Of a stretch of 64,000 bases of DNA, positions 1,378 to 59,200 are shown one piece after another. Below the pieces are notes generated by a model. That model did not search any database. It saw nothing but the letters and a program-made list of their open reading frames with translations, and was not told the origin of the DNA. The position numbers and the translations under genes are program-made. This stretch comes from Mesostigma viride (Eukaryota; Streptophyta; Mesostigmatophyceae; Mesostigmatales; Mesostigmataceae): NCBI GenBank assembly GCA_009746045.1, contig RPFO01000667.1:1004221-1068220 (forward strand). The letters are read 5' to 3'. Numbering within the stretch: position 1 is the stretch's first letter; every line of letters starts with the position of its first letter.

Positions 1378-4300
1378 ATGGATCCTGCGAAAGTGCGGTA
1401 TCTGCTGACTGTGGAGTACGTCGGAACTAACTTCGTCGGATGGCAACGCCAGTCTGTTGGTCGTACCGTGCAGCAAGTTTTGGAGGTATGGCATCGTCCG
1501 CAAGCTCGCCCATGTCGTTCATTGGGCTTGGCTTTCAGATTCTGACCACTTTGGGTGGTTCGCCCGTCATGACGCACAGGTTTAACCATGAAAGCCAATA
1601 TTGGAAGAAGAATCACTTCGAAGAACGGATATATCAAATTAATTATCTTATTAACTTACCCCAGTCAAGCCAAGGGGGGGGGGCATCTCTTAGATCGGCG
1701 TTTACCCATGGTTGACATCGTGCCGCTGTTTGACGAGATAATGCGAGGCATGTAATGACCACTGCCAAAGGATATTTGATCGAAACCTTGCAGTCAGCCA
1801 ATTTTACTGCACGGCACAGAAAATCGGTTACGTCGTTTCTGAAGGGACTACGTCCTTCAGGAGGCATTGCAAAGTGTTGCATGGATACTTGTAACCCATG
1901 CGCGCAGTTTATGCAGCCATGTTGCCAAAATCCTTCTTAGGTTGCCCCCCCGTACTATATTTGTATCTCTGATGGCCGATTTGCTTGGTCGTTCTTTCTT
2001 CCATGTATTTTTTACACTGGTTGACATCTGCTTATAAATTTAGCTGCTTTTCACCCTGTACTTGCAACCTATTCCTTTGGCATCGTTCTCTCTTCCATGT
2101 GTTGTTTTTGACACTGGTTGACAGCTGTTTATCAATTTTGTTTGTCGACTCTCGTGCATGTTTGTTAGGTCTCTGCGTGTTTGGTTATTCCCTGGCCTGC
2201 CTGATGTTCCGCCAGGATGGTTGCAGGAAGCCGTCAAGTGTTTCTTTGGCAAACCTTTTTAGTAACTGATTCTCTGGCATGCTTACCTACATTCGGGATG
2301 GTTGCATGCTAACTTGTTCTCTACTATGCTTATCTACATCCGGGCCGGTTGCAGGAAGCCATCAAGAGTTTCTTGGGCGAACCAGCGCTCATCCATGGCT
2401 CGAGTCGCACGGTGGGGAATAGCCAACCACGAATGCAGTTATGACCACCATTTATGATTAAGAATGTAGAGTGTACGGCTCGATTCGAACGGCGAAATGC
2501 AGTTATGACCACCATTTATGATTAAGAATGTAGAGTGTACGGCTCGATTCGAACGGCGAAATGCAGTTATGACCACCATTTATGATTAAGAATGTAGAGT
2601 GTACGGCTCGATTCGAACGGCGAGTGATCGTGATAGTCTTTTACAGAGGCTAGTTCTTGGATTACACAGCGATTCTCTAGTCCATGTGCCCTATGCCAGA
2701 TGTCATGAGCACAACATCCCCCAGTCGCACGGTGGGTGCTTTACGCCGTTGGTAACTTCAGGAAGTCTATCTTGCCGTCATCGGTGCGTCGTTGGGTTGT
2801 GCCGCCGCAATGCCACAGTGGATGGATGCTGTATTATATAATGCTAGTATATCTACTAAATTAATTAGGGGGTTGCGATGGCTTCCTGCCCGTGTGGCGA
2901 AATTCCCCAGTGCCCGTACTACCGCTTCGCTAGCCAAGCCCTATGGTGGTTGGCTTCCAAAATGCCAGCTGTCACCCATACACAGTCGGGAGAACGTTTT
3001 TAGAATACATATTTCCGTTGCACAGAGTGTGCTGGGCTCTACCAGTGACTCTGCCTCTTCTGGGTGTATCGGCTTAATAAACACGTATCCCCTTAATAAA
3101 GACGTATCCCCTTTAATAAACACGTATCCCTTTAATAAACACGTATCCCCTTAATAAAGACGTATCCCCTTTAATAAACACGTATCCCTTTAATAAACAC
3201 GTATCCCCTTAATAAAGACGTATCCCCTTTAATAAACACGTATCCCTTTAATAAACACGTATCCCCTTAATAAAGACGTATCCCCTTAATAAACACGTAT
3301 CCCTTTAATAAACACGTATCCCTTTAATAAAGACGTATCCCCTTAATAAACACGTATCCCTTTAATAAACACGTATCCCTTTAATAAACACGTATCCCCT
3401 TAATAAAGACGTATCCCCTTTAATAAACACGTATCCCCTTAATAAACACGTATCCCCTTAATAAAGACGTATCCCCTTAATAAACACGTATCCCTTTAAT
3501 AAACACGTATCCCCTTAATAAAGACGTATCCCCTTAATAAACACGTATCCCTTTAATAAACACGTATCCCTTTAATAAACACGTATCCCCTTAATAAACA
3601 CGTATCCCCTTAATAAACACGTATCCCCTTAATAAAGACGTATCCCCTTAATAAAGACGTATCCCTTTAATAAACACATATCCCCTTAATAAACACGTAG
3701 GCTGCGACACATGAGCATTCTTGATATAGTGACATACCCCAGCTGTGACATGTACAGCTTGCTACTCCATGATGACCAGTTCCCTGGTTCTGTTGCCACA
3801 AGACAACAAAGTACGGCTTTCGATGTTTTGTGGTTTGATCTCCTGGTCCTGTTGGTAGAGAGCAAAGGGGCCCGTGCGCTCCTTTGCCCTTTATGACGTA
3901 TCGTCGCATTGTTTGCCCCATATGGTCGCATTGTTTGCCCCATATGGTAGCATTGTTTGCCCCCTATGGTAGCATGCATTGTTTGCCCCATATGGTAGCA
4001 TTGTTTGCCCCATATGGTAGCATTGTTTGCCCCATATGGTGGCATTGTTTGCCCCCTATGGTAGCATTGTTTGCCCCCTATGGTAGCATTGTTTGCCCCG
4101 TACGGTAGCATTGTTTGCCCCGTGTGGAAGCGCTGTTTGCCCCATATGGTCGCATTGTTTGCCCCATATGGTAGCATTGTTTGCCCCCTATGGTAGCATG
4201 CATTGTTTGCCCCATATGGTAGCATTGTTTGCCCCATATGGTAGCATTGTTTGCCCCATATGGTAGCATTGTTTGCCCCATATGGTAGCATTGTTTGCCC

Positions 4301-7300
4301 CCTATGGTAGCATGCATTGTTTGCCCCATATGGTAGCATTGTTTGCCCCATATGGTAGCATTGTTTGCCCCATATGGTAGCATTGTTTGCCCCATATGGT
4401 AGCATTGTTTGCCCCGTACGGTAGCATTGTTTGCCCCGTGTGGAAGCGCTGTTTGCCCCATATGGTAGCATTGTTTGCCCCATATGGTCGCATTGTTTGC
4501 CCCATATGGTAGCATTGTTTGCCCCATATGGTAGTATTGTTTGCCCCATATGGTAGCATTGTTTGCCCCATATGGTAGCATTGTTTGCCCCATATGGCAG
4601 CATTGTTTTCCCCATATGGTAGCATTGTTTTCCCCATATGGTAGCATTGTTTGCCCCATATGGTAGCATTGTTTGCCCCATACGGTAGCATTGTTTGCCC
4701 CATACGGTAGCATTGTTTGCCCCATATGGTAGCATTGTTTGCCCCCTATGGTAGCATTGTTTGCCCCATACGGTCGCATTGTTTGCCCCATATGGTAGCA
4801 TTGTTTGCCCCCTATGGTAGCATTGTTTGCCCCATATGGTCGCATTGTTTGCCCCATATGGTAGCATTGTTTGCCCCATATGGTAGCATTGTTTGCCCCA
4901 TATGGTCGCATTGTTTGCCCCATATGGTCGCATTGTTTGCCCCATCTGGTAGCATTGTTTGCCCCCTATGGTAGCATTGTTTGCCCCATATGGTCGCATT
5001 GTTTGCCCCATATGGTAGCATTGTTTGCCCCATATGGTAGCATTGTTTGCCCCCTATGGTCGCATTGTTTGCCCCATATGGTCGCATTGTTTGCCCCATA
5101 TGGTCGCATTGTTTGCCCCATTTGGTCGCATTGTTTGCCCCATATGGTTGCATTGTTTGCCCCCTATGGTAGCATTGTTTGCCCCCTATGGTCGCATTGT
5201 TTGCCCCATATGGTCGCATTCTTTGCCCCATATGGTCGCATTGTTTGCCCCATTTGGTCGCATTGTTTGCCCCATATGGTTGCATTGTTTGCCCCATATG
5301 GTAGCATTGTTTGCCCCCTATGGTCGCATTGTTTGCCCCATATGGTAGCATTGTTTGCCCCATATGGTAGCATTGTTTTCCCCATACGGTCGCATTGTTT
5401 GCCCCCTATGGCAGCATTGTTTGCCCCATATGGTCGCATTGTTTGCCCCATATGGTAGCATTGTTTGCCCCATACGGTCGCATTGTTTGCCCCATATGGT
5501 AGCATTGTTTGCCCCATATGGTCGCATTGTTTGCCCCATATGGTAGCATTGTTTGCCCCATATGGTCGCATTGTTTGCCCCATATGGTCGCATTGTTTGC
5601 CCCATATGGTCGCATTGTTTGCCCCATATGGTCGCATTGTTTGCCCCATATGGTCGCATTGTTTGCCCCCTATGGTAGCATTGTTTGCCCCATATGGTAG
5701 CATTGTTTGCCCCCTATGGTAGCATTGTTTGCCCCGTGTGGAAGCGCTGTTTGCCCTGTATGGTAGCATGCAATAACAGAAGCTCCCTTTCCCCACCATT
5801 CCGCCCGCCCGCCCACCCGCCCCTCCCTCCCTCCCTGCCTCCCTCCCTCCCTCCCTCCCTCCCTCCCTCCCTCCCTCCCTCCCTCCTCCCTCCCTCCCTC
5901 CCTCCCTCCCTCCCTCCCTCCCTCCCTCCCTCCCTCCCTCCCTCCCTCCCTCCTCCCTCCCTCCCTCCCTCCCTCCCTCCCTCCCTCCCTCCCTCCCTCC
6001 CTCCCTCCCTCCCTCCCTCCCTCCCTCCCTCCCTCCCTCCCTCCCCCTCCCTCCCTCCCTCCCTCCCTCCGTCCGTCCCTCCGTCCGTCCGTCCGTCTGT
6101 TTGTTCGTTCGTTTGCCATGGAAACCGGGCGCACTTTCATCTGTCTTAGGGCACCTCGTAACTGACCTGCCTCTAAATCCTAAACCCTAAACAGCATCTC
6201 GTGACTTACCTGCCTTCGATGATATGCTGAAACAAAAGCAAGCTTCTGTTCCCCACCCGTTGCTTACTTTTCCCCTTCCCCTACAAGAACGTGGGTGTGC
6301 CACCGCGGGGCAACACCATTTCCTGACTTGCGATATCTAGCAGCTTACCTATCCCTTATGATATCTCACCGTAGTGGTCAAAATCACTTTGCGTATAATT
6401 GTTTGCGAATCGACCTCGCAAACTGCTATTAATGTGCTTCATTTTGGGTCGCAAAGTTCAAATGTTACCGCACCGCGCCTGCGCCGTGCCGCACAGCCCC
6501 AAGCCTAGCTATTTTAATCAGTGCTACCCAATGGATCAATAAAATTACTCAGTTGGGTAGTTGGGTTACATTGGAAGGGGGACAAGGGATATGAAGTCGG
6601 TGAGACCCAAGCCACTGACCACAAACAAGTCGATCGGCTCGCAAACCTAAAACTTTGCCTTCGTTTTGGGTCGCAAACTATAAATTTCACCTTGTTTTGG
6701 GGTTGCAAAGTAATTATTCGCAAAGTGATTTTGACCACTACGGTATTGCTCACCTGCCCCTTACGATATCTAATAGCTCACCTGCCCCTTATGATAACTT
6801 ACATCTTACCTGCCCCTCATGATATCTAATAGCTATTCGCATCTGATAATGTTGGTTCTTCTTCCCATTCACCCACCCTTTTGTCCCTACCAGGACGCGG
6901 GCGTGCACGCGCTGGGCAACACGGCGCACCTGGATATCTGCCGCGTGAGCAAGCGCAAGCCGGGGCAGACGGTGCGTCCCATGAAACAGTTATGAGATAT
7001 GCATTGTGCTGAAAAAGAGTACTAGCAACAGTTATGAGATATGCATTATGCTGAAAAAGAGTACTAGCAACAGTTATGAGATATGCATTATGCTGAAAAA
7101 AGAGTACTAGCATGCTATGAAACAATGAAGGGGTACCGTGCGTGCGCATGTTGGTGGCACCGCTCCCTTTGCCCGCTAGGAACGTGGCAGGCAGGGTTGA
7201 TGGCCCATTGAGTCAAATGATAGTAAATAGTGATGGTAATAGTGATAGTAACAGTGATAGTTATCGTGATAGTAATGGTAATAGTGATAGTAGTTAATGA

Positions 7301-10300
7301 TGTTGAAAAACAACTGTATGGTGCTGAATCGCAGCACATTACCTTCACATGCAATGTTTTCTGGCCTCCGTTTCCTTCTGGTCTATCTTGTTTTGATTGT
7401 GTCTTTCTTTCTGTCTGCGACCGTTGGAATCCGTTGCAGTTGCATGTACTCATGGTAGAGGTAGTAGTAGTACTACCTAGTAGTAGTAGTATACTACTAA
7501 TATAGAGGTCCAGAGTGCAGCCGTGATCAACCAGGAGTCACCTTTGGCCGGCTTCCGCGGCGTGACCCAGTGCGTAGTTCTCCTACTCACATCCGCCCCC
7601 GTGGGGCTAGCAGTTAGATCTGATCCACTGGTTCATATTGGGGAATTTCGGACGCACTTGCACCGCTCTCCGGTAGAGTGCTTTTTTCGCAGTTGGGCTA
7701 TCGCTTGGGATGCCTTCGGATCAGGAGACCCCTACAGCCGCGAAATCATGCAAGAGGTCCTGTGTTCGAATCCGGTACGGTACCAAACTATTTCATAGTA
7801 TACTACAAATCTAGTATACCAATGTATATACTACTTATCTAGTATACTGCTAATGTATATACTACAAATATAGTACTACTAATATAGTAGCACATTTAGT
7901 GTCAGCACATCTAGCTTTCCTTCTTGCGTTCCTCCCTCTGTGACCACCACACCGCCTGGCCCCCGGCAACGTGTGCCATCCAGCAACTTATATCCGCAAA
8001 CCCAAACACCATCTCCCTCGTTTGCAACAGCCCACCCTTCTGCGCTCGTGGACCTGCGTCAGCGCTTTTTACACCTTTTGGTGTCGTGCGTGCGCATTGT
8101 GGCGACACCGTACTTGTGCCACTGCCTTGTTGCATATTCTAAAAGAGATTCGTTTTTTTCCTGTGAATCCTAACTCAAGGGGATACTATGATGTAGCCCA
8201 AAATTATACCACTTGACAACGGCAACAGGCTCTGTTGCCAAATGGTATAATATCCCCTGCATATTGTTACATACTACTATTATTTCTTTGCTATTAAATG
8301 GTGAGATCTGGCAGCTCCTCCACACTAACATTTTCAACTTTGTCTTTGACAGCCATTTGCAAACTTTGCTTCTGTGGTGCACGTGATGGAGACGTGCAGC
8401 TGGCCCCCCACGAGCCGTCGGCGGTGCTTAAAGCGATCAACCACTTCCTGAGGGTAAGTAATCGACTTACTCGTTGATACCTATACTTCTCTTGTAACTA
8501 ATTAATCCTACGGGTAAGGGCGTGTGTGGTGGTGAAGAGCGCAGCTACCTTTGGGAGGAGCTATGTTACTCCTCTCTTCGGCAGCAGCTGTGTTATTCCT
8601 GTCTTTATTATTCCCGTCTTTGGCAGCAAGCCAGCAACTATATGATTCTTCTCTTTATCATTCCTCCCTTTGGCAGCAACTATAGGATGGTGTTCAAGGC
8701 GCTCAACCACTTCCTGCATGCAGGGGTCTTCATACGGACGACGCAACAGCCAGGTACCGATTGGGTCAGCAGGCACTGGACAAGAGGGGAAAATCTGCTG
8801 CGTCGTCCGCCGTATAGTCGGCAGGTAGATCAGCGGGCACCTCCGTTTGCTTCAGAGGCCCGCGATTCAGAGCATCGTCAGCAGCAAGCATCAAATGCTT
8901 AAACTGCTTGGCCAGTTCAGGTTGTGCCACGAGGGTTTGCATCAGCCTCGTGGCCTCGTCCGCACTAAAGCGTGGCAGGACGGAGCTTGCGGCCTCGCCA
9001 CTTGGCGCATCTGTGTGTTCTCCCGTGCGGCTCCGTGTGCCGGAAGCCATCGGGACGTGTATGAATACAAGTTAAAGCCCCCGGCCGGCTAAGCTATGGC
9101 GGTCGGTCACGTTGAGCTTGGGAGAATGAGAACACAGAGAACCGCTGTCCGAGCTGGCCAACCACTGGCTTATGTCCTAGCCAGCAAAGCCTATCCGGTT
9201 AGCCGTAACCGTGGGACAGGCTAGCTGTGCGTACTGACCCGGATAAGGCCCCGGACTGGGGCCTAGGTGGCGCCGGCCCTAGGCGCCGCCCTTAGACCGG
9301 TCGACCGCATCGGACCGCCGGATAATAGCCGGCGGCTTAGCGGACGCTAGCGGAAGGCGTGCGGACGGACATGGGGAACTTAGAGCCAGATGCTAGGGCT
9401 CTAGAGTTACTCAACTCCCTTATCTCTCATGCATTCCCGTAGGGACGGTTCTCGACGCCTTCCACCGCTTTGTGCGGGTAAGCAGGCACTGGACAACAAG
9501 AAAATACATTTCTTGTTTTTGGTCCATTGGAGTTCCTTCCCACCAAGAGAAACATTTATTTTACATTTTTGTGTGCTAGGCTTTATACGGACAGCCTATA
9601 CCACACCTTCAAACTCAGTGCACATCATTATCAAGTTGGTTATTGTAGCACCATGCTGGGGGCCCAGCATACTCGAACACAAGGTGTTGCCCCTCTTAGC
9701 AGCGTGGGTGGGTGGGTGGGAGCTGAAAAGAGGCCTCCCTACGTCCCCTACACCACTCTAAGTACTGACTATCATTCACATTGCGCCACGCAGGCCTGCC
9801 GGCTGGCGCAGGTACAAGGTGTACTGACTGCCAATCACAGTTGCGCCACGCCTGGCGGCTGGCGCAGGTAACAAGGTCTAGTGACGTACGTTAGAAGCTA
9901 CCTAGGCCTGCACTCCGGAACCACACTCAGCCTAGGCACAAAAAGGGCCGGCCGGTGCAGTACCCTCGTGACAAGCGCTAGTCTTACGCTACCTACGGCA
10001 GGTCGGTCCCCTTTGAGCCCGTCCACGCGTCATATATAAAATGAGCGAAGCTCAGCAAATACATTTCTTGTTTTTGGTCCATTGGAGTTCCTTCCCACCA
10101 AGAGAAACATTTATTTTACATTTTTGTGTGCTAGGCTTTATACGGACAGCCTATACCACACCTTCAAACTCAGTGCACATCATTATCAAGTTGGTTATTG
10201 TAGCACCATGCTGGGGGCCCAGCATACTCGAACACAAGGTGTTGCCCCCACACCTCCTTCCTGGCCACCAAGGCTGTCGCCAACCTTGGTGCCGATTTTC

Positions 10301-13300
10301 TTTCCGCCCATGGCCCCCCTCCTGCACGCTGCCACGGCTGTACTGCCGCCCCCGTGTGGCCGCTACGGTTTCCCGGCGGACGCAGGGCGGCACCCATGTC
10401 GTTCCCCCCGTTAGGGGGGCGGTTTCCAGCGGCTGCTCATTAGGCCTTACGCCCCCGGACCGTCTCTCACAAGCCCAGGACCCATCACCAGCCCCACCCC
10501 CGAGGCTGGGATTTCCCGGCATTGAAACCTTTGTGGCGATAGGCCCTCTACCCTACCAAGGCCTTGGCTTGGAAACTGCTTAGCCAAGGCCCTGACCAGG
10601 GCTTGTGTTGTTGTAGGAAATTTTTTATGGCATAGATATGCCCCCCTGGCTGAACCGAACTCTTTATCGCTTTTCCTATAATGCATCATACAGGATAAAA
10701 ACAAGGCGATAAAACAGCAAGAATTTCAGCCCCGCCAGGCGAACATTCTTTGCTGAAAAACTGGGCAATGATGAAGAGCGCGCTCCTCCCACCAAGATTC
10801 GCTCCAGCCCCGCATCCTCCCCGAAACTCCCGTCTGGCCACAGGCCGAAAGATCGGGTCCGCTGTCAGGCTCCTGGCAGTTATGGGCTACCCTGGCACCC
10901 CGCGCTAGCCATCTCCACGTTTAAGGCAGATTCGCCTCCACCTGTGATTCTTTCCACCGTAGCCGCTGGCCCTGGCCTGTATGGCTCCTTCCCTGACGTT
11001 GTCCGACTAAAACGCAGCTTCCCCAGTGTCAGGAAGCCGCTTGCCGCACCCAGGGGTAGAGGGGAATCGTCAGTGGGCCCAGCGCCGGAAATCACACCCT
11101 TTTACTCAAAACGTAGAGCCCCCCACCCAACAACCATTACCGTGGCCTGTAACGGTGGGTGGCGAACATAAAGAACTTTATTCCAGGCCTCTCCACGCCC
11201 GGAGAGGCCGATAGCATCGTCTTACATTCAGCGCAGCCGCCATAGCGGCCAGCCGACCTTGCCAGCAAATGCTGGGATCAAGTTGCGAAGCTGAAAAGAG
11301 GCCTCCCTACGTCCCCTACACCACTCTAAGTACTGACTATCATTCACATTGCGCCACGCAGGCCTGCCGGCTGGCGCAGGTACAAGGTGTACTGACTGCC
11401 AATCACAGTTGCGCCACGCCTGGCGGCTGGCGCAGGTAACAAGGTCTAGTGACGTACGTTAGAAGCTACCTAGGCCTGCACTCCGGAACCACACTCAGCC
11501 TCGGCACAAAAAGGGCCGGCCGGTGCAGTACCCTCGTGACAAGCGCTAGTCTTACGCTACCTACGGCAGGTCGGTCCCCTTTGAGCCCGTCCACGCGTCA
11601 TATATAAAATGAGCGAAGCTCAGCAAATCCTTACAGAAAAAGTAACAGTCACAGATGTTTTTATCTAATCCCCCCGTGTCGCTCATCAATCAACCAGGGG
11701 ATGCCGCAGCCAACCGTTTTCTGCGGGTAAGCACACACTAGATTGCCAGGTTGGGCACTCGTAGATGCGCTCGGAGCAGGTGGTGCAAGCATTTCCGTTT
11801 TTTCAAGCTTTGTGGGAGCCGAGACAGTAGGGTTACAATCATCTTGCTTCACATCACACATTATCTGGATCTTTCGCGAGCTAGAACTGCTTTCTAGGTA
11901 TACTGCTACTATTGATGGAAGTCAAGTGTTTGTGAGGGTTTTGGACGTGGTGGTTGGGGGGGCGGGGGGGGGGGGGGGGGGGGGGACGTGACGGCTGCCA
12001 GTGGTCTGCCAAGTCCCTTGGAAGCGGTCTCTGTGACTTTGGTGTAGTGAGGCTTTTTGGTGTGTTCATTAATGTATTAATGAATAGCACGTGGATCTGT
12101 TGGCCCCCAGTCAATGGCAGAGCGATCCAGGCATGCGTGCAAAGGTCACTATAGACAGCGTTCATGATTCGCCTGCTGCAGTTTTTCATTTACCTACTTT
12201 TGTTTTCCTTACTCTACTTAAGACTATGAGCCCGTTGTATGAGCCCTTTCTCGCTGATGTGAGACGCGTGTCCATGGGATCGCCTTATTGGTCCTTATGT
12301 GTGAATCAGTGGAAGATATTATGTAGTCGTCCACTTTATTATGTTGTGTATGAATCAATGGAATCAATTTGTAGTCCATGTGTTACTTAATGGGATTGCC
12401 TGATACGTCCTTACGTGCGTGCAAAGTAGTTTACACGCTCATCGCCCATTCCCTTGCTTGTCTCACATACATTGTTAGTAGCGGTATTACTGCTATCACG
12501 TTACTTGCTTTTTTATGATAGTATCTGCTAGTTTGATACTATGGAAAAATTCCTATAGCTAGCTCGTGTAATGTATCCAAAGCTTGCCGCAAAGGGGGGG
12601 GGCAAACATACTAGAACTCAAGCACTGAAGGGTGTTTTGCGCGGCGAAGCTATACACCTGTTATTCAGTAAGTAGGATTGCTCTTAACTCTCCATAGTAA
12701 AATATATACTACTATGAGCTATACACCTGTTATTCAGTAAGTAGCATTGCTCTTAACTCTCCATAGTAAAATATATAAGCTATACACCTGGTATTCAGTA
12801 AGTAGCATTACTCTTAACTCTCCATAGTAAAATATATACTACTATGAGCTATACACCTGGTATTCAGTAAGTAGCATTACTCTTAACTCTCCATAGTAAA
12901 ATATATACTACTATGATTCTTCTTTTCCGGGTTTTCCTTGTGTTGCATTCCCCTCTCACCTCCGTAACTTATCATTCTCAATGAAAATATATATATATAT
13001 ATATATGATAATGACAAAGTACGGAGGTGGGATGGGCTCTCCATACATACATACACGCCCCTCTTTGGGCCATGCTCTTATTCCTGTGTGCATGCGTGGA
13101 CATGGTCTGTGGGGTTTGGCTCATTATTGTTGCAAATACTGTGGGGGGCCCCATGGCCCTGTGCAGAAGGCAGGGACCCTGGATGTGTCAGTGCGCGGCG
13201 CCCACCGCGTGCCAGAGACGATCCACGCACGCTACGCCGCCACGAGCCGTGTGTGAGTGGTTGGATGTCTGGTTTGTTTCGTGGTCGCGATGCACTAAAC

Positions 13301-16300
13301 CTGCAGGCTTGACGGATACCCTCCCGTTTCCTCTTTTTGCTCAGACCTTGGCATCGTCAAGCCTGTGCTGGTGGTCTTGTGACGTCGTGGGCACTGAAGT
13401 AGCAATGCCACGCCCGTGCTGGTCGTCTCGTTGATAAGTACACACATTCTACTCTGGGCAAGGGGAAATGTCTTGGGGCACCGCCAAAGGGGAGATGCTT
13501 GGTACTACTATACTGCCAAAGTCAGAGGAAATTTCTTGGGATACCACCACCGACCACGTGTGAGTCACTAGAAACTTGTTTAGTGGACTCTCCATGTCCA
13601 CAGGGGCGAGAACCAGCATGGACTCAGCTTCTGGGGCGTAGCCGGTGCCATAACCGGAAGTGGGAAAACATAACCGGATGGGAACCCCCTTACAGGCTTG
13701 TTCCCCGAGCGCATGAACTCGTCGCCCCATAGATTAATTTTTCGTTGCTCCTAGATAGTGGGTTTAGTTTTGTGTGCTTTTGGTTACACTGTGGGTCGCC
13801 GATGAGGCAGTCACGTACGAGGAGTTCCTGTCATCTGATGCAGACACCGAATTCCCAGACACATAGGAAGTCTATTCAAGCTTATGACGTCGTAACCAGA
13901 ACGGGGGTCCATGTCCCGGTCATGGGCCGTCAGCCAGAAGTTGAGAGTTACGCCTCCACCTGACCAGTGCCCAAATTGACCAGTGGTTCAGTTGCCAGAT
14001 CATCGAAGCTGCTCACATAATCTGTGATGGCCCTTGCTTGGTTCTTTTGTGTGCACAAGATCATTGAGGCTGCTCACATCATATGTGATGGCCCTTGCTT
14101 GGTTCTTTTGTGTGCACAAGATCATTGAGGCTGCTCACATCATCTGAGATGGCCCTTGCTTGGTTCTTTTGTGTGCACAAGATCATTGAGGCTGCTCACA
14201 TCATATGTGATGGCCCTTGCTTGGTTCTTTTGTGTGCACAAGATCATTGAGGCTGCTCACATCATCTGTGACGGCCCTTGCTTGGTTCTTTTGTGTGCAC
14301 AAGATCATTGAGGCTGCTCACATCATCTGTGACGGCCCTTGCTTGGTTCTTTTGTGTGCACAAGATCATTGAGGCTGCTCACATCATATGTGACGGCCCT
14401 TGCTTGGTTCTTTTGTGTGCACAAGATCATTGAGGCTGCTCACATCATCTGAGATGGCCCTTGCTTGGTTCTTTTGTGTGCACAAGATCATTGAGGCTGC
14501 TCACATCATATGTGACGGCCCTTGCTTGGTTCTTTTGTGTGCACAAGATCATTGAGGCTGCTCACATCATCTGTGACGGCCCTTGCTTGGTTCTTTTGTG
14601 TGCACAAGATCATTGAGGCTGCTCACATCATATGTGACGGCCCTTGCTTGGTTCTTTTGTGTGCACAAGATCATTGAGGCTGCTCACATCATCTGTGATG
14701 GCCCTTGCTTGGTTCTTTTGTGTGCACAAATTTCATTTGTCCCCCAGTTACCTGCTAGCGCGCATTTGAGCTGCGCTGTCCTCGCACGGACCATTTGTTT
14801 GTCGTTCTGTGCGTGGTGTGAATGTGTGCGCAGGTACCGCTAGGGGACACTCCTCATTGCCCACTTTAATCCTCAAAACACTGTGCCCTCTGTGCAGGTA
14901 CCACTACCGCACGCTCCTAAATGCCTGCGGTCATCCTAAAACCACGCGCCCTATGCACACATATGTGTTCTATGTGCATATGTGTGCAGGTACCACTACC
15001 GCATATTGTCAGGGTCGCTGCAGCCATCAGCGTTCGAGCAAGGGCGGGTGTGGCACGTGCATGAGGAGCTGGATGTTGATGCCATGCGGGTGGGTGGGGA
15101 GACTTGGATTGTTGTAAGACTTTGATGAAGACCTTGATTAAGACGGACTTGACGAAAACTTGGTGGTGTGCTTTGGACACCATGTGGGCAACTATGAGAC
15201 CTGGGTTTGCCCCTTAGTAGTTGGTCATGGAAGCCTCGCCGGTGGGTACAGGATTATGCGGGTGTCTGTACTGTAGGACTTGGGCTTGAGCTGTTACAGT
15301 TTGTACAGTTTGCAGCGAAACTCTGTCGATCTCTATAGGGCTCTTGTCTGCCACAGCTGTGGGTCTACGATTAGCTGTTTAGCTTTAGCTTTTTAGCTTT
15401 GACAAATTCGTAGTGGATGCCATGTGGGTGGGGTAGGCTAGTCTTCAAGATTTAGTGGATGGCGTGGATGCACTGCGTGTGGGTTGAGATGTTCAAGTGA
15501 AGAGTTGGCTTGACCAAGCCCATCGACAGGTGAAGGCTTTTGGACGCCGTACAGCTGGGTATCGAACCTGAGTTTTTGGTTTCGTGGACGTGGACATGGT
15601 GGGTGGAAGAAAGATTCAGGTCTGAAAAGCATTTCCAAAGACAAGCTCCAGCTACTGTTTCGAAGGCAACCGCAATCAATATTGTTGTGCAAATTTGTTA
15701 TTGTTGTTGTTGTTGTTGTCGTCGTCCTCGTCGCCACCGTTGTCGTTGTTGTATAAAGGTCGTTCGAGGCCATGAATGCGGTAATGGTAGCCTTCATGTA
15801 AGCTCGACTTTGCCTGATTCGGGTAATGTGCGCTGGAGGCCATGCAATGGGTAGAGTTCCCCCTGCATGTCGGGGACATACCTAAGCGGTAGGAGTCTTG
15901 CGCTTAGGTTAAATGGACTGGGCTTTGGAGGCCGTGCAAGTGGGTTTGGTTATTAAGTGAATTAAGGAAGGTAAAAGTTTCTGGGGCCATACATCAGGCA
16001 GATGGGTCGAAGCTTAGGGATGGAGTAAGGTTGAATTAACTTGAAGGCATTGGGAGGGTGGTGCGGACACCCGGTTTCAAGCTCTCGTTTTGCATGTCGG
16101 TTGTGGTGGGTTGTATGGAAGTGACTGTGGAGTTTCACGTGTGCTGACTATTTCCTTCCACTCACCCCACCACATACTGTATGCCACCACACGCAAACCA
16201 CAACCCGCACCGCACACTCACCACATTTGCGTCCTCGCCCAAGCCTTTTTGCAAACCCACAAGTTCGAAAATGGTGAATACATGAATGTGATGTGCACAT

Positions 16301-19300
16301 GTTCTTTTAAATATACGAATATTTGATGCAGAGTGCGGCGGAGATTCTGCTGGGCCGGCACGACTTCAGCTCCTTCCGCGCCGTGGGTTGCCAGGTATTT
16401 TGATTTATATACTCGAATATGATGGGGTGGAGATTCATTACGTCATGGTTAGCCCTGATGTGTTTGAATGGTTCCGCGCCGAGCCACGCCTGGTATTTTA
16501 ACAGATGGAATGGAGAGGTCGCTCGTGTATGTTAGCAACAGCCTCATAACCTTGTACTATCTATTTATTTCAAGATGACCCACTATCTATCTATTTATTT
16601 CAAGATGACCCACTATCTATCTATTTATTTCAAGATGACCCACTATCTATCTATTTATTTCAAGATGACCCACTATCTATCTATTTATTTCAAGATGACC
16701 CACTATCTATCTATTTATTTCAAGATGACCCACTATCTATCTATTTATTTCAAGATGACCCACTATCCTGGGGACCTGGGCCAGTGCAGGCTTGATGGCT
16801 TGGTTCTACCCACACGGCCATGCACCCACTAAACCCTTTCACCCAATGCATCATCGCTCCCTCCGTAGTGTCAGCCGATTTCCCACCGTCCACGTGCCAA
16901 ATCCCCAGGCACAGAATCCAGACACGCAGGCAGACTGACGTGTACTCACTATTACTGGCATTCGTCACCAGCGGAGCTTGTACCCTTATTTCCCACATCG
17001 CACCCGTTTGTAGGCGTGACCGCTGCTGACCTCTCCATGATTGGCATCTTGGTTACGGTCACCATGATCTGCACCCCTCCATGTTTGGGCAGGGGCATCT
17101 TTACCCCGCTTATGTATGCGCCCACCACCCGGCACGCAACCCCGTCCACACACACACATACACACACACAGCTAGTTGATACCCAACTGACGAGTACCCA
17201 ACTCATTGGTGCTCGTTATGATTGACGTCCGTCACCGCCCACCCGCCCGCCAGGCGCGCGATCCCGTGCGCACGCTGGACGTGCTCACCGTGGCCACTGT
17301 GGCCCACTGGCCCCACTTCTGTCCGCCGCAACCGGCACCTCGACCCACGGAGGGCGGCGACGACGGCCTCGTGAAGAGCGAGCCTAGGGGGGAGGCAAGG
17401 ACTGGTAGTGCTGGTGATGCAGCAGTCAATAATGCCGGTGAGGGCCTGCTGCAGAGCGAGCCTCAACTCCGCGGGGATGCCTCTGGTGGCGACGCCGACG
17501 TCATGCATGCTGGCGCCGTAAAGGTTGCTGCTGGTGACGGGACGTTCCGTGCTCACGCGGGTGACAGTAATGCTAGCATTGGAAACCCAGGCAGATCCAG
17601 GGACAAGACAGAGGATGCTGGCAACGCGGGAGTCGGCGCGGGCGACCCCGCGGCGTTGAATGCTGTGGACGGCCTCCCCAGGCGCGGGTACAACCCTCTG
17701 CACGGCCATGGCGTGCGGGAACCAAGTCCTGACGCCGAACAACGCATGGGGCACGAGCGCCCTGTCATCACGGCGCAGGAGCATAATTCCCCGCTGGCGG
17801 TGTCCAAGCGTCGCAAGGGGGAAGCTGGCGGCCCCATCCCCGCTACTCCCCCCCGTAGCGTTGCACCCGCCCCGGGCAGCCTTGTAGGAATCAGCTCCCC
17901 AAAACACACAGCACTCGGCGGAAGTGGGGGAGCAGCTGATGCGGCTGCAAGCGCTGTGTCGGCGGCTCCCTCTCGGGAGAGGCGGGCGGGCGTGAGAACG
18001 GCGCAAGGTGACGTGCCGAGTTTCCAGGAGGCGTACCGGGAGGTGGTGGTCACGGTCAAGGCGCGCTCGTTTCTCTACCATCAGGTAAGCGGGCTGTTCA
18101 ATACTGGTACTATGGTACTTATAGTAGTAGTATAGTCCTTTTGATATCAGAGCGCCATGGTATTGTTAGTAGTACTCTGGCAAGGCGCGCTCGTTTCTCT
18201 ACGGTCAAGTAGGCGGGCTGTTCCTGTGATCACCTGCTTGTGATGTATCTGGGTGATGTGGGAGTGGCGTTCATGGATTCGACCGAAAGGCGCGCTTGTT
18301 TTTCTACCGCCAAGTAAGCGGGTTGGATAGTGAGAAGGTTGGCTGGTCAAATGTTTAAGTCCTTATGCGATCACTGTGATGTGGAAATATTAGTAGCACT
18401 CTGGCCAGGCGCAATCGTTTCTCGACCATCAGGGAAGCGTGCACGATACTCAGTACTAATTTACGGTACGGAGAGTAGCATGTGAAACCGACATGCCATT
18501 AATGGATAGCCTGGTAAGGCGGTCTGGTTCCATCAAGCGGGCAGTACTGTCGAGTAGGGCGTTATTATAACCACTGTAGATGGGGTATTCATGGATTCGG
18601 CAGACAAGGCGCGCTCATTTCTCTGCCGTCAAGGGAGCGGGAGCGCCGCGTCGCAGGAGATTCGTGATGTTGGTTTGGGAGTGTTTGTAGAAACTGGTGC
18701 ATGATGGTGGCTGGGGGAGTGATTATAGAAACTCACCAAGTATGTTGTTTTACGAGTCTCGTGCCTATATCGATGAGGATGAGGGAAACAAATAACCCAG
18801 CACTTTCCTGCCCCGCTAGGGTACGGGTGCTAGCATGTAGGCTAGTGCATAGTGCTAGCGTGTAGGCTAGTGCATAGTGCTAGCGTGTAGGCTAGGGCGT
18901 AGTGCTAGCGTGTAGGCTATTGCATGTAGGCTAGCGTGTGTGGTGACTGCTTTCACCCCTACCCTGTGTGCTTGTGGTGCAGGTGCGGCTCATAGTGGCG
19001 GTCCTCAAGGCTGTTGGCTGCGGCAAATTGGCGGTGGAGGACGGTGAGCATGTGGCCTCTATCCCATACTGGCTTCTTTTGCCCCTTTGCTCCTTGGGAG
19101 AAATGTTTTGTTGGCTGTGGAGGGCAGGCATGAGGTGGATGGCGGTGAGCGCAGGGGGGAATGTGCAGAGGGTTTCTTGGCATTGGCATGTGAGTCAGTC
19201 CTGGCAGTGGTCTTACTGTTGGCAGGTAGAGTGGCGGTGAGCGCGGGGGGGGGCATGCGCCAGGAACAAGTTGTACCAAGAGACGTGCCAGGAACATGCA

Positions 19301-19752
19301 TATCAAGAGACGTGCCAGGAACATGCATATCAATTGAATTTTATTTCCCTCACTTCAGTGCCCACAAACAGGCTTGCCTTCGATTCCTGGCCACACTTTG
19401 GTTGGGGCATGATGCAGACGATATTTGTAACTTTCCTGTGATTTTTTTCCAATGAGATTAGCATAGTACTCCGTGGCATGCCCATGCGCATGGCACGCAA
19501 GTACTTTCTTATGCCCCAGTCTCTCACGCGCCACTTTGCTGAACTAACTTTTTATGAAATCCTAATATATTTTATACTACTTGTTTCTGTGCCCATGCAG
19601 TCCGCAAGATCCTTGACGCAAAGAACAATTTAGAGATCGCTCGCCACAAGGTGGCCATGGCCCCTGCCTGTGGCCTATATTTGGCCCAGGTGAACTATGA
19701 TGAGAGCGAGGTGCTTGGTGCGGAGGAGCGGATTGACGAGATGGAATGCTAA
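1378..19752 (+). CDS. tRNA pseudouridine synthase, TruA/PUSL1 family, 10 exons
   Basis: It would isomerise uridine to pseudouridine in tRNA; TruA-family enzymes act around the anticodon stem-loop. Exons: 1378-1485, 2355-2411, 6894-6971, 8400-8453, 13167-13252, 14990-15089, 16332-16394, 17254-18084, 18983-19043, 19601-19752 (TAA). All junctions are GT..AG and the phases match, giving 529 residues. Landmarks in order are GTNFVGWQRQ (exon 1), GSSRT joined to DAGVHALG with the catalytic Asp as residue 56 (first codon of exon 3), HARYAATSR (exon 5), FEQGRVWHV (exon 6), HDFSSFRAVGCQ (exon 7), ARDPVRTL (exon 8) and ARSFLYHQVR across exons 8/9. The wording is closest to the PUSL1 branch. Exon 8 carries about 235 extra low-complexity residues between ARDPVRTL and ARSFLYHQ. 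Most exons are 100 nt or shorter and the introns hold satellites and junction copies. A TGTAA, a green-algal type polyadenylation signal, lies 18 nt after the stop. The family call is firm; localisation is unknown. Confidence 0.9.
2196..2354 (+). repeat. Acceptor-side exon echoes of pseudouridine synthase exon 2
   Basis: The true exon 2 begins after GGTTGCAG at 2354 with GAAGCCATCAAGAG. A copy at 2219-2258 reads GGTTGCAG followed by GAAGCCGTCAAGTG and a decayed continuation. A further copy of the intronic lead-in (CTACATTCGGGATGG) lies near 2288-2305. These are degenerate tandem duplications of the intron-exon junction, and the last copy is the one that fits the protein. Confidence 0.7.
2397..2735 (+). 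repeat. 64-bp tandem repeat derived from the donor edge of exon 2
   Basis: Exon 2 ends with GGCTCGAGTCGCACG before GTGGGG (2397-2417). The following repeat has units starting at 2477, 2541 and 2605, each beginning GGCTCGATTCGAACGGCGA, a diverged copy of that exon end, and each followed by the same 45-bp intronic sequence. A last copy, AGTCGCACG then GTGGGTG, lies at 2723-2738 and keeps the donor. The tandem array therefore grew from the exon-intron boundary. Confidence 0.7.
3063..3705. repeat. 18-19-bp minisatellite in intron 2
   Basis: About 34 units of CTTAATAAACACGTATCCC, with two alternating variants: AAACACG against AAAGACG, and CCCCTTAAT against CCCTTTAAT. The variants are interspersed, which points to unequal exchange among pre-existing variants. 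There are no spacers, so it is not a CRISPR array. It lies between exons 2 and 3 of the pseudouridine synthase gene. Confidence 0.9.
3896..5768. repeat. 22-bp minisatellite, about 85 copies, in intron 2
   Basis: Nearly perfect head-to-tail 22-bp units centred on CCCCATATGG followed by T(A/C)GCATTGTTTG. The A/C variant and CATATGG/CCTATGG/CATACGG variants are scattered through the array. Because 22 is not divisible by 3 and the unit has no stop codon on either strand, long frames stay open on both strands, the longest 441 codons. These are repeat artefacts inside an intron, not genes. Confidence 0.92.
5771..6110. repeat. (CCCT)n polypyrimidine tract
   Basis: Roughly 280 bp of nearly pure CCCT with single-base phase slips, running into GTCC and GTTC tetranucleotides at its right edge. 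The strict purine/pyrimidine strand asymmetry could support triplex (H-DNA) structure. It lies in intron 2 of the pseudouridine synthase gene. Confidence 0.9.
6281..6325 (+). repeat. Exon echo of pseudouridine synthase exon 3
   Basis: CCCCTACAAG then AACGTGGGTGTGCC and GGGGCAACACC parallels the true junction at 6884-6928, where CCCTACCAG precedes GACGCGGGCGTGC and CTGGGCAACACG. The catalytic-Asp codon is not intact in the copy. It lies 570 bp upstream of the functional exon. Confidence 0.6.
6976..7112. repeat. Short tandem repeat, three units, intron 3
   Basis: Three consecutive 44-45-bp units of ACAGTTATGAGATATGCATT followed by ATGCTGAAAAAGAGTACTAGCA. They start four bases after the donor of exon 3. 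A TA/GA-rich short repeat (GTGATAGTAATA type) follows at 7218-7290. Confidence 0.8.
7497..7800 (+). other. Unassigned intronic segment with a B-box-like motif
   Basis: The stretch ends with GTTCGAATCC (7764-7773), which resembles the pol III B box and is followed by GGTACGGTACCA. I cannot fold a cloverleaf around it because the flanking T-stem bases do not pair. It could be a decayed tRNA-derived SINE; I do not call a tRNA gene. Confidence 0.25.
8178..8257. repeat. Compact nested foldback in intron 3
   Basis: Three nested inverted pairs: AGGGGATA against TATCCCCT at the outside, ATTATACCACTTG against CAAATGGTATAAT (one mismatch), and GGCAACA against TGTTGCC with a 5-base loop. The whole 80 bp can form a cruciform or RNA hairpin. 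It may be a small foldback or MITE-like element; no target duplication was identified. Confidence 0.55.
8692..8727 (+). repeat. Exon echo of pseudouridine synthase exon 4
   Basis: GTGTTCAAGGCGCTCAACC then ACTTCCTGCATGC copies the end of exon 4 (GTGCTTAAAGCGATCAACC then ACTTCCTGAGG, 8424-8453). Two further decayed copies that keep a GTAAGC donor lie at 9454-9483 (CCACCGCTTTGTGCGG before GTAAGC) and 11704-11732 (GCCAACCGTTTTCTGCGG before GTAAGC). All are downstream of the real exon. Confidence 0.6.
8766..9050 (-). CDS. Unrecognised 94-codon frame, possible retroelement gag-like start
   Basis: The frame begins MASGTRSRTGEH and is rich in Ala, Asp and Leu. I do not recognise the product. It lies inside intron 4 of the pseudouridine synthase gene on the opposite strand, and its 3' end runs into an echo of exon 4, so it is at best a fragment. 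The GC-rich, stem-forming sequence 9090-9425 upstream of its start could be the leader of a retroelement, but no LTR pair bounds it. Treat it as hypothetical. Confidence 0.2.
   Translation of the reverse strand: MASGTRSRTGEHTDAPSGEAASSVLPRFSADEATRLMQTLVAQPELAKQFKHLMLAADDALNRGPLKQTEVPADLPADYTADDAADFPLLSSAC
9502..9693 (+). repeat. Direct repeat S, copy 1 (192 bp)
   Basis: Near-identical by eye to 10057-10248, beginning AAATACATTTCTTG and ending GGTGTTGCCCC. It stands 27 bp upstream of repeat R copy 1. The high identity within a heavily decayed intron implies a recent duplication. Confidence 0.85.
9721..11628 (+). mobile_element. Direct-repeat-bounded element (340-bp repeats R1/R2), possible non-autonomous LTR-like unit
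   Basis: R1 (9721-10060) and R2 (11289-11628) are both exactly 340 bp and differ by about one base (CCTAGGCAC against CCTCGGCAC). Each contains a TATA-like CATATATAAAATG about 30 bp from its end. The second S repeat (10057-10248) follows R1 directly. The interior has an open frame from about 10715 to 11171 rich in Pro, Ser and Arg that I do not recognise; there is no RT, integrase or recombinase. The two near-identical terminal direct repeats resemble a young non-autonomous LTR (TRIM-like) element, but I could not confirm TG..CA ends, a primer binding site or a target duplication. Confidence 0.5.
11950..11987. repeat. Poly-G tract in intron 4
   Basis: A run of more than 30 nearly uninterrupted G. 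It is a potential G-quadruplex or assembly-length-uncertain homopolymer. The remaining bases 11990-12640 show no recognised feature. Confidence 0.7.
12645..12915. repeat. Four tandem units of about 62-70 bp, intron 4
   Basis: Units begin AGCTATACACCTG and contain TATTCAGTAAGTAGCATT and CTTAACTCTCCATAG, differing by a TACTACTATG insertion in some copies. Each contains CAGTAAGTAG, which resembles a donor site. The gap before exon 5 ends with a (TA)n run at 12985-13006. Confidence 0.85.
13995..14727. repeat. 61-bp tandem array, about 12 units, intron 5
   Basis: Units contain GATCATTGAGGCTGCTCAC and GGCCCTTGCTTGGTTC with strict 61-bp spacing. Sites of variation (ATCATATGT, ATCATCTGT, ATCATCTGA; GATGG against GACGG) are shared in a patchwork between units, as produced by unequal crossing over or gene conversion. 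Confidence 0.9.
14830..14945 (+). repeat. Two exon echoes upstream of pseudouridine synthase exon 6
   Basis: The true acceptor is GTGTGCAG then GTACCACTACCGCATATTG (14982-15008). Upstream copies read GTGCGCAG then GTACCGCTAGGG (14826-14845) and CTGTGCAG then GTACCACTACCGCACGCTC (14890-14917). Both keep the AG acceptor. Only the third, exon-proximal copy continues into TruA-like coding sequence. Confidence 0.75.
16440..16500 (+). repeat. Donor-side exon echo of pseudouridine synthase exon 7
   Basis: GGTTCCGCGCCGAGCCACG then CCTGGTATTTTAACAG copies the end of exon 7 and its donor (CCTTCCGCGCCGTGGG then TTGCCAGGTATTTTGA, 16370-16404). The copy is decayed and lies about 90 bp downstream. Confidence 0.65.
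16556..16766. repeat. 30-bp tandem array, seven units, intron 7
   Basis: Pure 30-bp units of ATGACCCACTATCTATC plus TATTTATTTCAAG. Because 30 is divisible by 3 the frame stays open as a repeated MTHYLSIYFK decapeptide, but the array lies within an intron and is not called as coding. Confidence 0.92.
18180..18640 (+). repeat. Four donor-side exon echoes of pseudouridine synthase exon 8
   Basis: Exon 8 ends AAGGCGCGCTCGTTTC then TCTACCATCAG before GTAAGCGGGCTG (18058-18096). Copies occur at 18181-18222 (CTACGGTCAAGTAGGCGGG), 18288-18322 (CTACCGCCAAGTAAGCGGG), 18408-18440 (CGACCATCAGGGAAGCG) and 18605-18640 (CTGCCGTCAAGGGAGCGG). Spacing is 105-200 bp. The GT donor dinucleotide survives in the first two and is lost in the last two. 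Confidence 0.85.
18826..18940. repeat. Short tandem repeat of GCTAGCGTGTAG type, intron 8
   Basis: Four to five imperfect units of about 25 bp built from GTAGGCTAGTGCATAGTGC, ending about 40 bp before the acceptor of exon 9. Confidence 0.75.
19120..19255 (+). repeat. Donor-side exon echoes of pseudouridine synthase exon 9
   Basis: Exon 9 ends TTGGCGGTGGAGGACG before GTGAGCATG. Copies GGTGGATGGC then GGTGAGCGCAGG (19134-19156) and GTAGAGTGGC then GGTGAGCGCGGG (19225-19247) lie downstream and both keep a good GTGAGC donor. Confidence 0.6.
19445..19512 (+). repeat. Family C retroelement tail hairpin
   Basis: The block reads ATGAGATTAGCATAGTACTC then CGTGGCATGC, CCAT, GCATGGCACG, then CAAGTACTT. 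It recurs inverted at 22535-22605 next to (AAGT)n and, diverged, at 44225-44290. The 10-bp arms pair except for one conserved purine-purine mismatch. A hairpin followed by a short tandem tail is typical of a LINE 3' end. It lies in the last intron of the pseudouridine synthase gene. Confidence 0.55.
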
Positions 19753-25530: not shown

Positions 25531-33714
<8,184 letters not shown>

Positions 33715-34387: not shown

Positions 34388-43276
<8,889 letters not shown>

Positions 43277-49430: not shown

Positions 49431-49479
49431 GTGCTACACTTGCTATGAGTTCGTTTGTCCACTATTCATATTTGTTGCG

Positions 49480-53249: not shown

Positions 53250-53297
53250 ATACTAGGAATATATATAATAATAAATAATACTAGGAATATATATACC

Positions 53298-53725: not shown

Positions 53726-53748
53726 ATGCGCGTGGGCCACATGCTAGG

Positions 53749-56207: not shown

Positions 56208-59200
56208 TTAAGCACCGGGTATGCAGCTGTCGCTTTGTTCGTCACAAACCTCCCCATACTGACACAATAAAAGGTCCGGCTCGCTAACACACGCGCCATC
56301 ACGACACTTGTCCAGGGAGCAAAACTGGCCATCGTTACAGTCAGCATTAGAAGAACACTGGGCGGAGCCTGCACAGATGTCAGCATGAGAGGAACACGTG
56401 GCGGAGCACCGATGTCAGTGTTAGAGGACCACTGGGCGGAGCCTGCACGGATGGCCAATGCCAGTGGTGTGAAGCGGTACACCGCAGGTATGGGAGGCTT
56501 CAACCAGCAGCCATACGTGACTCAGCAGAGCCTGCATGGGGTGACTGTTGGTACAAATCATTTTTTTTGTAGCCCGCTCAAGCTACTTCAGAAATGATCA
56601 TGGCAGGAGCGGTGCATGGCTGAACAGCATGCATCAGAGCTGTGAGCTTTGGGCGTGCCAGTATCATTGGCAGGTCTGTGCATGATGCTGGCTCAATTTG
56701 CAAACTACTCTTTCAGGTGGCATAAGGCGATAGCCCAGTGGTTGTGCAACCAAAGTCGCTATCCCTTTTCCTTTTCATGACAGCCGGTCAAAACATTCGT
56801 CTAACATTCAATACTGGACCATGGTGTGCATGATAGCACACTGATGGGTACATTCACACTTCACTACCAGCCTGTTATAATAATATAGCACATTATTAAA
56901 TCCATAATGCCTACCTCTGAACGTGCATGAATTTAGTAGAAAAGTTCAGGAACTCATACAGCAGAATCTCTTATACAGAACTCTTGGCAAAGGCAATGAT
57001 AACTAGTTCACACAACTCTAGCCACCCGCGCCACCCCGCTTACCCTTGCAGCTGGGAAAGTGAACGGCCCCGATGTACGTGGCCGAGCGCGACGCCCTGG
57101 TCTCCCAGGGACCCACGAAATAGAAGCTGCAGCCGTCCATCGGGTCCACCGCCATGCTGCTCTGGCCGCCAAACGAGGAGGTGGCGGACGCCGCCGTGCC
57201 GGCGATTAGAAGCGTCTCGGGACTCGGCATGCTGCCAGGTGGCGCAAACGCGACCCTACCGGTATAGTACAGGCTGGGGTAAACGTTCCTGCTGGAATCC
57301 GCCACGGAGTAGCCGAGGGCAACGTTCCCTTCTCCGTCCAACGCGGCGTGGGGGAGCCAGCGGTGCGCCCCGTCGTAGGGGAGGACCCCGTCCTGGGACC
57401 TCTCCCAGGGGCCCGCAATGCCTGACGTCGGGTCGACCGATCGGCGCAGCTCCACCCACATGATGCCGGCCTGCGAGGTTGACCAGTGCGCATGAGGAAA
57501 AGAACAGCACCTGCCAGTGAGTTGCTATGAGGAGATAAGAGTACTCTCACCATTTCTATTTGCTAATCCTGCGAACAAGTGGGTGAGTGGTGACAATGCT
57601 GCTATGCGAGCTCTATAGTAGTATGAGGAGGAAACCGTAGAGGGGGGTTGTGGAGGACCCTAGCTAATGCACGACGACTTGGTCAGCTTTATTGGATGGA
57701 CCACTGTGGGCTGGAACAGATATCAAGATATGCCGAGGTATGGGGGTTAGATTACTATATGTGCCACTGTATACACAATAATAGTAATACAGTATAACTG
57801 TATTAGATATCAAGATAGATCATCCGCAACCCAAGGAGACAGTATATCACGCCTGGGTGCAGCCTGATAGTAGATCTCTGTCAGTATGTCGGTACATCCT
57901 TGAAGGCACAACAGATTGGGTAGAGGTTCATTAACATTCCTGCATGCTAGTGCAATCATCCGAATTCTCGTAACTTTATTCATTTCATTAGAGACAATTC
58001 GATTGATGCACTTCGTAGCAGCACTGTTTACATCATTAATGGGCACTTGGCAACAAATAGGAGCGTTAGCACCCACGTTGTTTACAGTTCCTGTGCACAC
58101 TTGGGCATGCTCAATAAAAATTGGGATCAAGGTGCCACAACCAGGGGCACTCACATTCACGCTCACATGGGCATTACATTAGTGCTCTCAGGGGCACTTA
58201 CATGCTCTGAGAGACATATACGTTAGCGGCTCAGCATATGGTCCCTGCCTCCCTGGAGAGGTTCCTAGTGCGTTGACGATTCTTCAGGAGCAAGGTCTGG
58301 CCCAAGAAATCACAGAGCCGCTCAGAAATCACGGAGCCGCTCAGCATTGTGATCACGCACCTTCTAGTAGTATGAGTGACAGGACTAACCATAGGACTAC
58401 GCGCGGCCATCTACGTGAGTGCAAGTTCCGTAGGTGACACTGACCACTATGAGTCGGTGTGCAAGAATAGGCCTCGTGTTGGACAGCACGATGCCCACAA
58501 GGGGATGCTTTGTCTGCTGCAAGACATCTCGATCAGTGTCTTAGGGGCGACTCTTCCCGTGGCAAGAAGCGCAAGCAGCAGAAAAAATGAAAAAAACTCT
58601 CTGTTTATTTTTAACCCTGCGTGGCAGTGAAGGCCTTCCAGGGGTTCATCAACATCCCTACGGATGTCATTTGGGTTAACCCGTTAAATAAACAGAGAGT
58701 TTTTTTCATTTTTTCTGCTGCTTGCGCTTCTTGCCTCGGGAAGAGTGGCCCCTAAGACACTGATCGAGATGTCTTGCAGCAGACAAAGCATCCCCTTGTG
58801 GGCATCCTGCTGTCCAACACGAGGCCTGTTTAGATACCACCGAATATCATACATAGTAATAACAGAAAAAAATAGTAGTAAGTATGTAAACCATAATCAT
58901 TCTCGATAGATACATACATATATGCCACTGTTCCAGCCAGAGGGGTACGTCGTCATGCCGCTGCCTGTGCCTGTTCAGTGATCCGCTTGATGAAAAACAA
59001 ACTGCTAGATAAGATCGAGTAAAACGATGCCACCCTATCGTAAAATGTCACCAGATAGGAAATAGAAATTTCGAATAGGAATGTCAGATAGAAACATTGC
59101 CTGGATAGTGATGTCGCCGCAACGTGGGCACATACGCCAAGATAACCCAGACCTCTTTTCTCACAACATAGTTCAAGCACCTCCATTGGGCACATCCATA

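Follow-up and report, generated by a model that had tools for sequence, protein, structure and literature searches.

In the RdRp gene of potato, a tandem duplication crosses an intron-exon boundary, taking in the end of the intron and the start of the exon and thereby copying the acceptor (Ma, Lan and Niu 2016, PMC4974935), and the first intron of the gene contains an 83-bp tandem duplication (PMC4974935). Insertions of 10-1000 bp in rice include tandem and partially tandem duplications, which have been ascribed to staggered nicks and end joining (Vaughn and Bennetzen 2014, as described in PMC7407515). In mouse and human cells, fill-in by CST and Pol alpha-primase gives small tandem duplications at staggered breaks having overhangs of 43-50 bases (PMC8355091). 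Here we analyse copies of exon edges, referred to as echoes, in introns of Mesostigma viride. The starting point was a stretch of 64,000 nucleotides (the window; assembly GCA_009746045.1, contig RPFO01000667.1, positions 1,004,221 to 1,068,220 of the forward strand), and all positions below refer to it. A preliminary description of the window had noted such copies in all four of its genes and had held that introns grow by tandem duplication across exon edges. The presence of the copies is confirmed and extends beyond the window: the adjacent intron holds a direct copy for 45 of 170 edges tested in the window and in kinesin genes, where 4.1 were expected.

Two sets with a total of 85 introns were used. 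The window genes, i.e. a TruA-type tRNA pseudouridine synthase (PUS), an M14 zinc carboxypeptidase (CP) and a TLDc-domain gene, were rebuilt by frame and splice rules, and all three models have GT-AG introns and open, consistent joined frames. A Cys-rich gene was examined at its last exon only. As an independent set, kinesin exons were located genome-wide, resulting in 20 loci with 66 introns chosen without any use of echo detection. Kinesin splice sites were fixed by frame, splice signal and gain against a kinesin profile built from the same genome; 11 of the 80 candidate junctions were dropped for want of a legal splice pair and 3 because they were worse joined than apart, and the remaining 66 were used. 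The assembly comprises 439,911,974 bases in 2243 contigs. The mean length of the 85 introns was 979 bp; PMC6947507 gives a genome of 441,847,188 bp, a mean intron of 1141.9 bp and a repeat content of 30.1% of intron space.

Each edge probe consisted of at most 40 exon bases and 12 intron bases and was compared by alignment with the remainder of the adjacent intron only. Random stretches of the same length from other introns were used as controls, with arrays masked first. Masking in the kinesin loci covered repeats of period 12 or less; in the window it was applied to 24 arrays, including some whose units are longer (19, 22, 30, 61 and 69 bp), which lowers the interior rate of the window. Three control sizes were used: 40 controls drawn from both sets, 60 drawn from window introns only and thus narrower, and 300 random segments from introns of other genes. 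Against 40 controls, 31 of the 132 kinesin edges scored above all controls (3.2 expected), as did 14 of the 38 window edges. When the score cut was fixed, between one and nine copies were found at 46 of the 170 edges. An echo is present at one or both ends in 39 of the 85 introns, and 17 of 23 genes are affected. Among the 45 edges beating all 40 controls, 44 had a score of at least 13 and were aligned using strict gap costs; these 44 pairs form the basis of the structural analysis below.

Copies are found on one side only. The preliminary description had claimed a strict polarity, with acceptor copies lying only upstream of their exon and donor copies only downstream. This was borne out, as matches to the wrong-side intron were at chance level, both overall (1/106 edges) and in the window (0/32). 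Inverted copies, searched by alignment to the reverse-complemented right-side intron, were likewise at chance (4/170 edges). Whether exon interiors match introns as often as edges had been set beforehand as a test; of 201 probes from exon interiors, 6 matched an adjacent intron against 4.9 expected, a chance result obtained on exons of 132 nt or more. Neither exon interiors nor wrong-side copies therefore refute the claim.

Our preferred explanation, to which we assign a probability of roughly 0.7, is that local duplications arise in introns and are kept where the protein survives, which accounts for both the echoes and the side rule. Introns would frequently gain short local duplications in direct orientation, as seen in those examined here. 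Where such a duplication runs over an exon edge, an extra copy comes to lie in the intron, and the exon would stay whole as long as the exon-proximal site is used. Duplications within exons, or splitting an exon, would be removed by selection, in keeping with the finding that neither exon interiors nor the wrong side show copies above chance. A duplication crossing an acceptor leaves its extra fragment upstream and one crossing a donor leaves it downstream, so the strict polarity is a matter of geometry. The copy joined to the remaining exon must complete the protein, and the rule that the exon-proximal copy is the functional one thus follows from geometry and selection. Surviving copies then appear to decay without visible constraint, judged on splice dinucleotides in a small sample. 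The mutational step would mostly be tandem duplication, at times with unrelated sequence between the copies, and arrays may grow later by slippage or unequal exchange. Splicing would have to favour the exon-proximal site over strong decoys, which would fit exon definition.

The proposal that the introns are built specifically from their own splice junctions is not supported. Local direct copies of 52-mers from intron interiors were found in 55 of 250 cases, compared to 45 of 170 for edges (p 0.30), and interior copies too are direct (40/169) rather than inverted (3/169). A local copy with a score of at least 14 was found in 862 of 2616 intron segments, i.e. one third, as opposed to 95 in controls. 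Of the intron sequence, 20.6% lies in arrays of period 13 or more; of the exon sequence, 1.3% does. Since the interior rate is close to the edge rate, we regard this as general short local duplication in introns, and the suggestion of a separate intron class is dropped because edges and interiors have copies at similar rates. The same comparison bears on the first alternative, namely duplication targeted to junctions, for instance by breaks linked to transcription or splicing, which would build introns from their own junctions. The junction is spanned by 38 of the 44 echoes and copies are commoner at the 5' ends of introns than at the 3' ends, as a junction-directed process would give; the spanning, however, is partly built in, as the probes sat on the junction, and the near-equal edge and interior rates make targeting unlikely.

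Several results weigh against the preferred explanation. Intergenic DNA of the window has fewer copies (13/101). Edge copies lie further from their source than interior copies do (median 140 vs 84 bp, p 0.014), and the exon-interior result comes only from exons long enough to hold a probe. Donor copies outnumber acceptor copies with intron-only probes (27/82 vs 8/73, p 0.001), and to a lesser extent with edge probes (28/85 vs 17/85, p 0.08) and exon-only probes (26/85 vs 15/85, p 0.07), an excess that a plain neutral model does not predict. Further, 28 of the 44 pairs are separated by an interval without detected homology, and five of these (PUS exon 8 and kinesin loci L042, L044, L048 and L051) have 91-93% identity over 26-58 bases, for which decay is a poor excuse; they suggest filler between the copies, which is only one option. 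The copy rate is 0.29-0.36 near the 5' end of introns and falls to 0.18-0.23 in the last 200 bases or so before the 3' end. The donor excess may reflect selection against acceptor copies.

Source and copy are separated by 47-606 bp with a median of 139.5 bp in the 44 echoes, distances that are limited by the search of the adjacent intron only. The aligned copies have 71-100% identity, most of them 71-96%, and differ by substitutions; this spread suggests a duplication process that is still continuing. The interval between copies was compared to the flanks using 200 controls from other genes, and was taken as homologous if it matched a flank at p 0.05 or below. Six pairs are adjacent and ten more have an interval matching a flank, of which about 2 are expected by chance. 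An adjacent or homologous interval is found in 10 of 15 pairs with at least 90% identity, compared to 6 of 29 older pairs. The claim that the copies are tandem consequently holds for most young pairs, but for only 16 of 44 in all. The higher share in young pairs agrees with a decay of tandem structure over time; tandem duplication followed by decay explains most of the young pairs and can explain many of the old ones.

Many copies are thus spaced, short and close to their source, which could also be obtained by template switching of the polymerase theta type, where nearby segments are copied into breaks in the intron. This mechanism predicts inverted, wrong-side and exon-interior copies, all of which occur at chance, and with inverted copies at that level we rejected it as improbable.

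The echoes may act as decoys. Using junction probes, GT is kept in 22 of 27 donor echoes and AG in 13 of 17 acceptor echoes, and 17 of the 22 GT-keeping donors and 6 of the 13 AG-keeping acceptors outscore the weakest tenth of true sites; all of these counts are biased by the 12 intron bases of the probe, as is the retention of the splice dinucleotide in 35 of 38 junction-spanning alignments. The preliminary description was in this respect correct in seeing introns filled with predicted decoy splice sites. With exon-only probes, GT is found in 14 of 20 echoes and AG in 10 of 14, where identity predicts 16.0 and 10.5, and neither purging nor preservation of splice dinucleotides is visible at such a sample size. 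Differences are most frequent at codon position 3 (0.185, vs 0.152 and 0.115 at the others). These strong donor copies and the third-position excess could be taken as signs of alternative or mutually exclusive exons, or of decoy sites selected for regulation. However, the copies are partial exons, exon interiors are copied only at chance (6/201, in exons of 132 nt or more), splice dinucleotides are retained no more than decay predicts, and selection on the real exon would by itself give a mild third-position excess. A regulatory or exonic role is accordingly very unlikely.

Echoes differ between related genes. The kinesin paralogues L038 and L051 share an intron position and have exon identities of 164/180 in the last exon and 243/308 in the first. 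At this position only the donor has an echo in L038 (score 25, control maximum 13), and only the acceptor in L051 (score 29, control maximum 18). This contrast implies a gain or loss of echoes at the level of individual introns. No shared segment was found in 85 random cross-intron pairings. The regions around the L050 pair (94% identity, the interval partly matching a flank) and around the PUS exon 8 array each occur once in the genome. A query of the L051 echo plus interval gave 65 weak matches elsewhere in the genome (68-80%), which we read as compositional because the L051 intron is C-rich.

Intron birth, either by AGGT duplication of an exon segment or by an introner-like insertion with target-site duplication, would also place direct repeats around splice sites, and the AGGT type likewise copies splice signals. 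It predicts a likeness between the donor and acceptor regions of an intron; this likeness was looked for and not found in any of 85 introns (maximum score between donor and acceptor regions 10, control 99th percentile 13), and AGGT gain was rejected. A dispersed element with target duplication was rejected as well, since the echo-plus-interval queries from L050 and PUS exon 8 each match only themselves in the genome, and intron birth of either type is hardly credible as the source of the echoes. An assembly or sequencing artefact can be dismissed: the assembly does seem to hold near-identical redundant contigs (C622, C805 and C1104, all small, duplicate stretches of C2 and C1926 or of one another at 99.8-100%, and the redundant copies L048/L058 and L059/L060/L061 align over long stretches with 0 mismatches and a few gaps), but most of the 44 copies are 71-96% identical with substitutions, and assembly errors do not yield such copies. 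No pair of alleles or strains differing by substitutions was found.

Local duplication with survival of the protein can now be compared to the described systems. As in potato RdRp, a direct duplication over an intron-exon boundary copies the acceptor. In potato, as described in PMC4974935, a new intron lies between the copies and one boundary-crossing duplication is known; in Mesostigma the intron just lengthens, the exon-proximal site presumably being used, and about a quarter of the edges tested are affected. The rice insertions are similar in being short direct duplications. As they are described in PMC7407515, they are not linked to exon edges or splicing, and the Mesostigma copies are mostly old and decayed. 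The overhangs of 43-50 bases in the CST and Pol alpha-primase duplications (PMC8355091) fall in the size range of the Mesostigma copies; that process was shown in mouse and human cells. By likeness to PMC8355091 and to the rice insertions in PMC7407515, fill-in of staggered breaks would fit best. The likeliest source may then be staggered breaks of which both overhangs are filled in before end joining, sometimes with filler.

The PUS gene is located at 1378..19752 on the plus strand and has 10 exons (1378-1485, 2355-2411, 6894-6971, 8400-8453, 13167-13252, 14990-15089, 16332-16394, 17254-18084, 18983-19043 and 19601-19752) joined by GT-AG introns in an open frame, with a match to PF01416 PseudoU_synth_1 (E 1.1e-35). 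The CP gene at 34388..43276, also on the plus strand, has 7 exons (34388-34812, 37150-37371, 38445-38540, 39316-39541, 40408-40556, 41510-41645 and 42860-43276), GT-AG introns, an open frame and a match to PF00246 Peptidase_M14 (E 4.5e-43). For the TLDc-domain gene on the minus strand (25531..32081; GT-AG, open frame; PF07534 TLD, E 7.3e-10), 5 exons were located (31826-32081, 30395-30461, 29022-29204, 27461-27583 and 25531-25605); the first exon was not found when the model was rebuilt in the window.

Seventeen junctions in the window had been named as carrying echoes. Using the 60 narrower controls, 17 of 38 window edges score above all controls, including the donors of PUS exons 2 and 9 and of TLDc exon 4. 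Using 300 controls, 13 of the 17 named junctions have no control as good, i.e. the acceptors of PUS exons 2, 3 and 6, CP exons 3, 4 and 6 and TLDc exon 4, the donors of PUS exons 4, 7 and 8, CP exon 5 and TLDc exon 2, and the acceptor of the Cys-rich last exon. PUS donor 9 is nominal (p 0.027) and PUS donor 2 borderline (p 0.063). The remaining two, the acceptor of TLDc exon 3 (p 0.61) and the donor of TLDc exon 4 (p 0.29), failed; the latter is by eye an intronic tandem array starting from the 5' splice site without exon sequence. Two echoes missing from the earlier list were found at the acceptor of CP exon 5 (p 0.007) and the donor of PUS exon 6 (p 0.04).

In the PUS gene (plus strand), the acceptor echo of exon 2 at 2212..2255 (real site 2340-2383) covers 44 nt with 84% identity and keeps AG; AG is also kept in that of exon 3 at 6279..6316 (real 6885-6922; 79%). 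The donor-side echo of exon 4, exon part only, is found at 8689..8716 (real 8423-8450; 86%). The acceptor echo of exon 6 at 14891..14911 (real 14983-15003) is identical at 21/21 positions, with an interval homologous to a flank, and the donor echo of the same exon is at 15413..15432 (real 15075-15094). Exon 7 has a donor echo at 16472..16499 (real 16374-16401; 79%, GT kept). The first donor echo of exon 8 is located at 18181..18223 (real 18057-18099; 91%), and additional donor copies were seen by eye near 18287, 18405 and 18606.

In the CP gene (plus strand), an echo of the start of exon 3 is found at 38147..38170 (real 38451-38474; 92%), with an earlier copy near 38022 by eye. The echo claimed for the exon 4 acceptor is present at 38853..38890 (real 39337-39373; 89%), but it covers exon bases 22-58 and includes neither the junction nor its AG. 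Exon 5 has an acceptor echo at 40270..40296 (real 40403-40429) and a donor echo at 40867..40908 (real 40525-40564; 78%, GT kept). The acceptor echo of exon 6 at 41323..41404 (real 41477-41557) has 79% identity over 78 paired bases and keeps AG. On the minus strand, the donor echo of TLDc exon 2 at 31598..31748 (real 31721-31871) is an adjacent 124-bp duplication with 85% identity over 150 nt and GT kept, and the acceptor echo of TLDc exon 4 is found at 29737..29779 (real 29177-29219; 77%, AG kept). The last exon of the Cys-rich gene, also on the minus strand, has 39-bp tandem units across its start (56368) at 56340..56453, as found by Tandem Repeats Finder (score 30, control maximum 13).

Other features of the window were recorded. 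PUS intron 9 contains a dispersed repeat of about 113 bp (19399-19511), with at least 40 further matches spread over many contigs, most of them 87-96% identical; related pieces were seen by eye near 22540 and 44230. PUS intron 4 (8454-13166) has two pairs of identical segments of 340 and 192 bp with spacers of 1228 and 363 bp, perhaps a recent rearrangement involving a mobile element. In CP intron 3, an open stretch at 38900-39250 resembles a retrotransposon polymerase fragment by its translation. Open frames at 47300-55150, also named by reading translations, resemble long interspersed nuclear element (LINE)-type retroelements, being reverse-transcriptase-like near 47.6-49.1 kb and repeatedly like open reading frame 1 (ORF1) on both strands near 49.6-55.1 kb. 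Very long arrays are found at 21184-22317 (TTCG, about 283 units), 39825-40124 (CT, 150 units), 26818-27214 (AGA, 37 units, and GAG, 96 units) and 3899-5769 (a 22-bp unit, 84 times). Of the kinesin matches, L008 and L010 have a near-whole motor profile in a single open frame, and many other listed matches are exon-sized.

In the open PubMed Central literature we found no description of junction copies occurring genome-wide; what is new here is their frequency, the strict side rule and the excess at the 5' ends of introns. More tentatively, break-repair duplication rather than transposons might be a major force lengthening introns in Mesostigma viride, placing duplicates of the edge's own splice site beside about one quarter of edges, with exon definition coping and the donor excess being due to selection against acceptor copies. 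Local duplication offers a simple, measurable route of intron lengthening without mobile elements, and a design-like pattern is accounted for by geometry and selection alone. Gene prediction in Mesostigma viride should expect false exon fragments at the ends of introns. A genome full of junction-plus-copy pairs would permit a direct test of whether sites are chosen by exon or by intron definition and of how costly decoy donors and acceptors are and, if the break-repair reading is true, it would be a natural large-scale test of the choice among near-identical splice sites.

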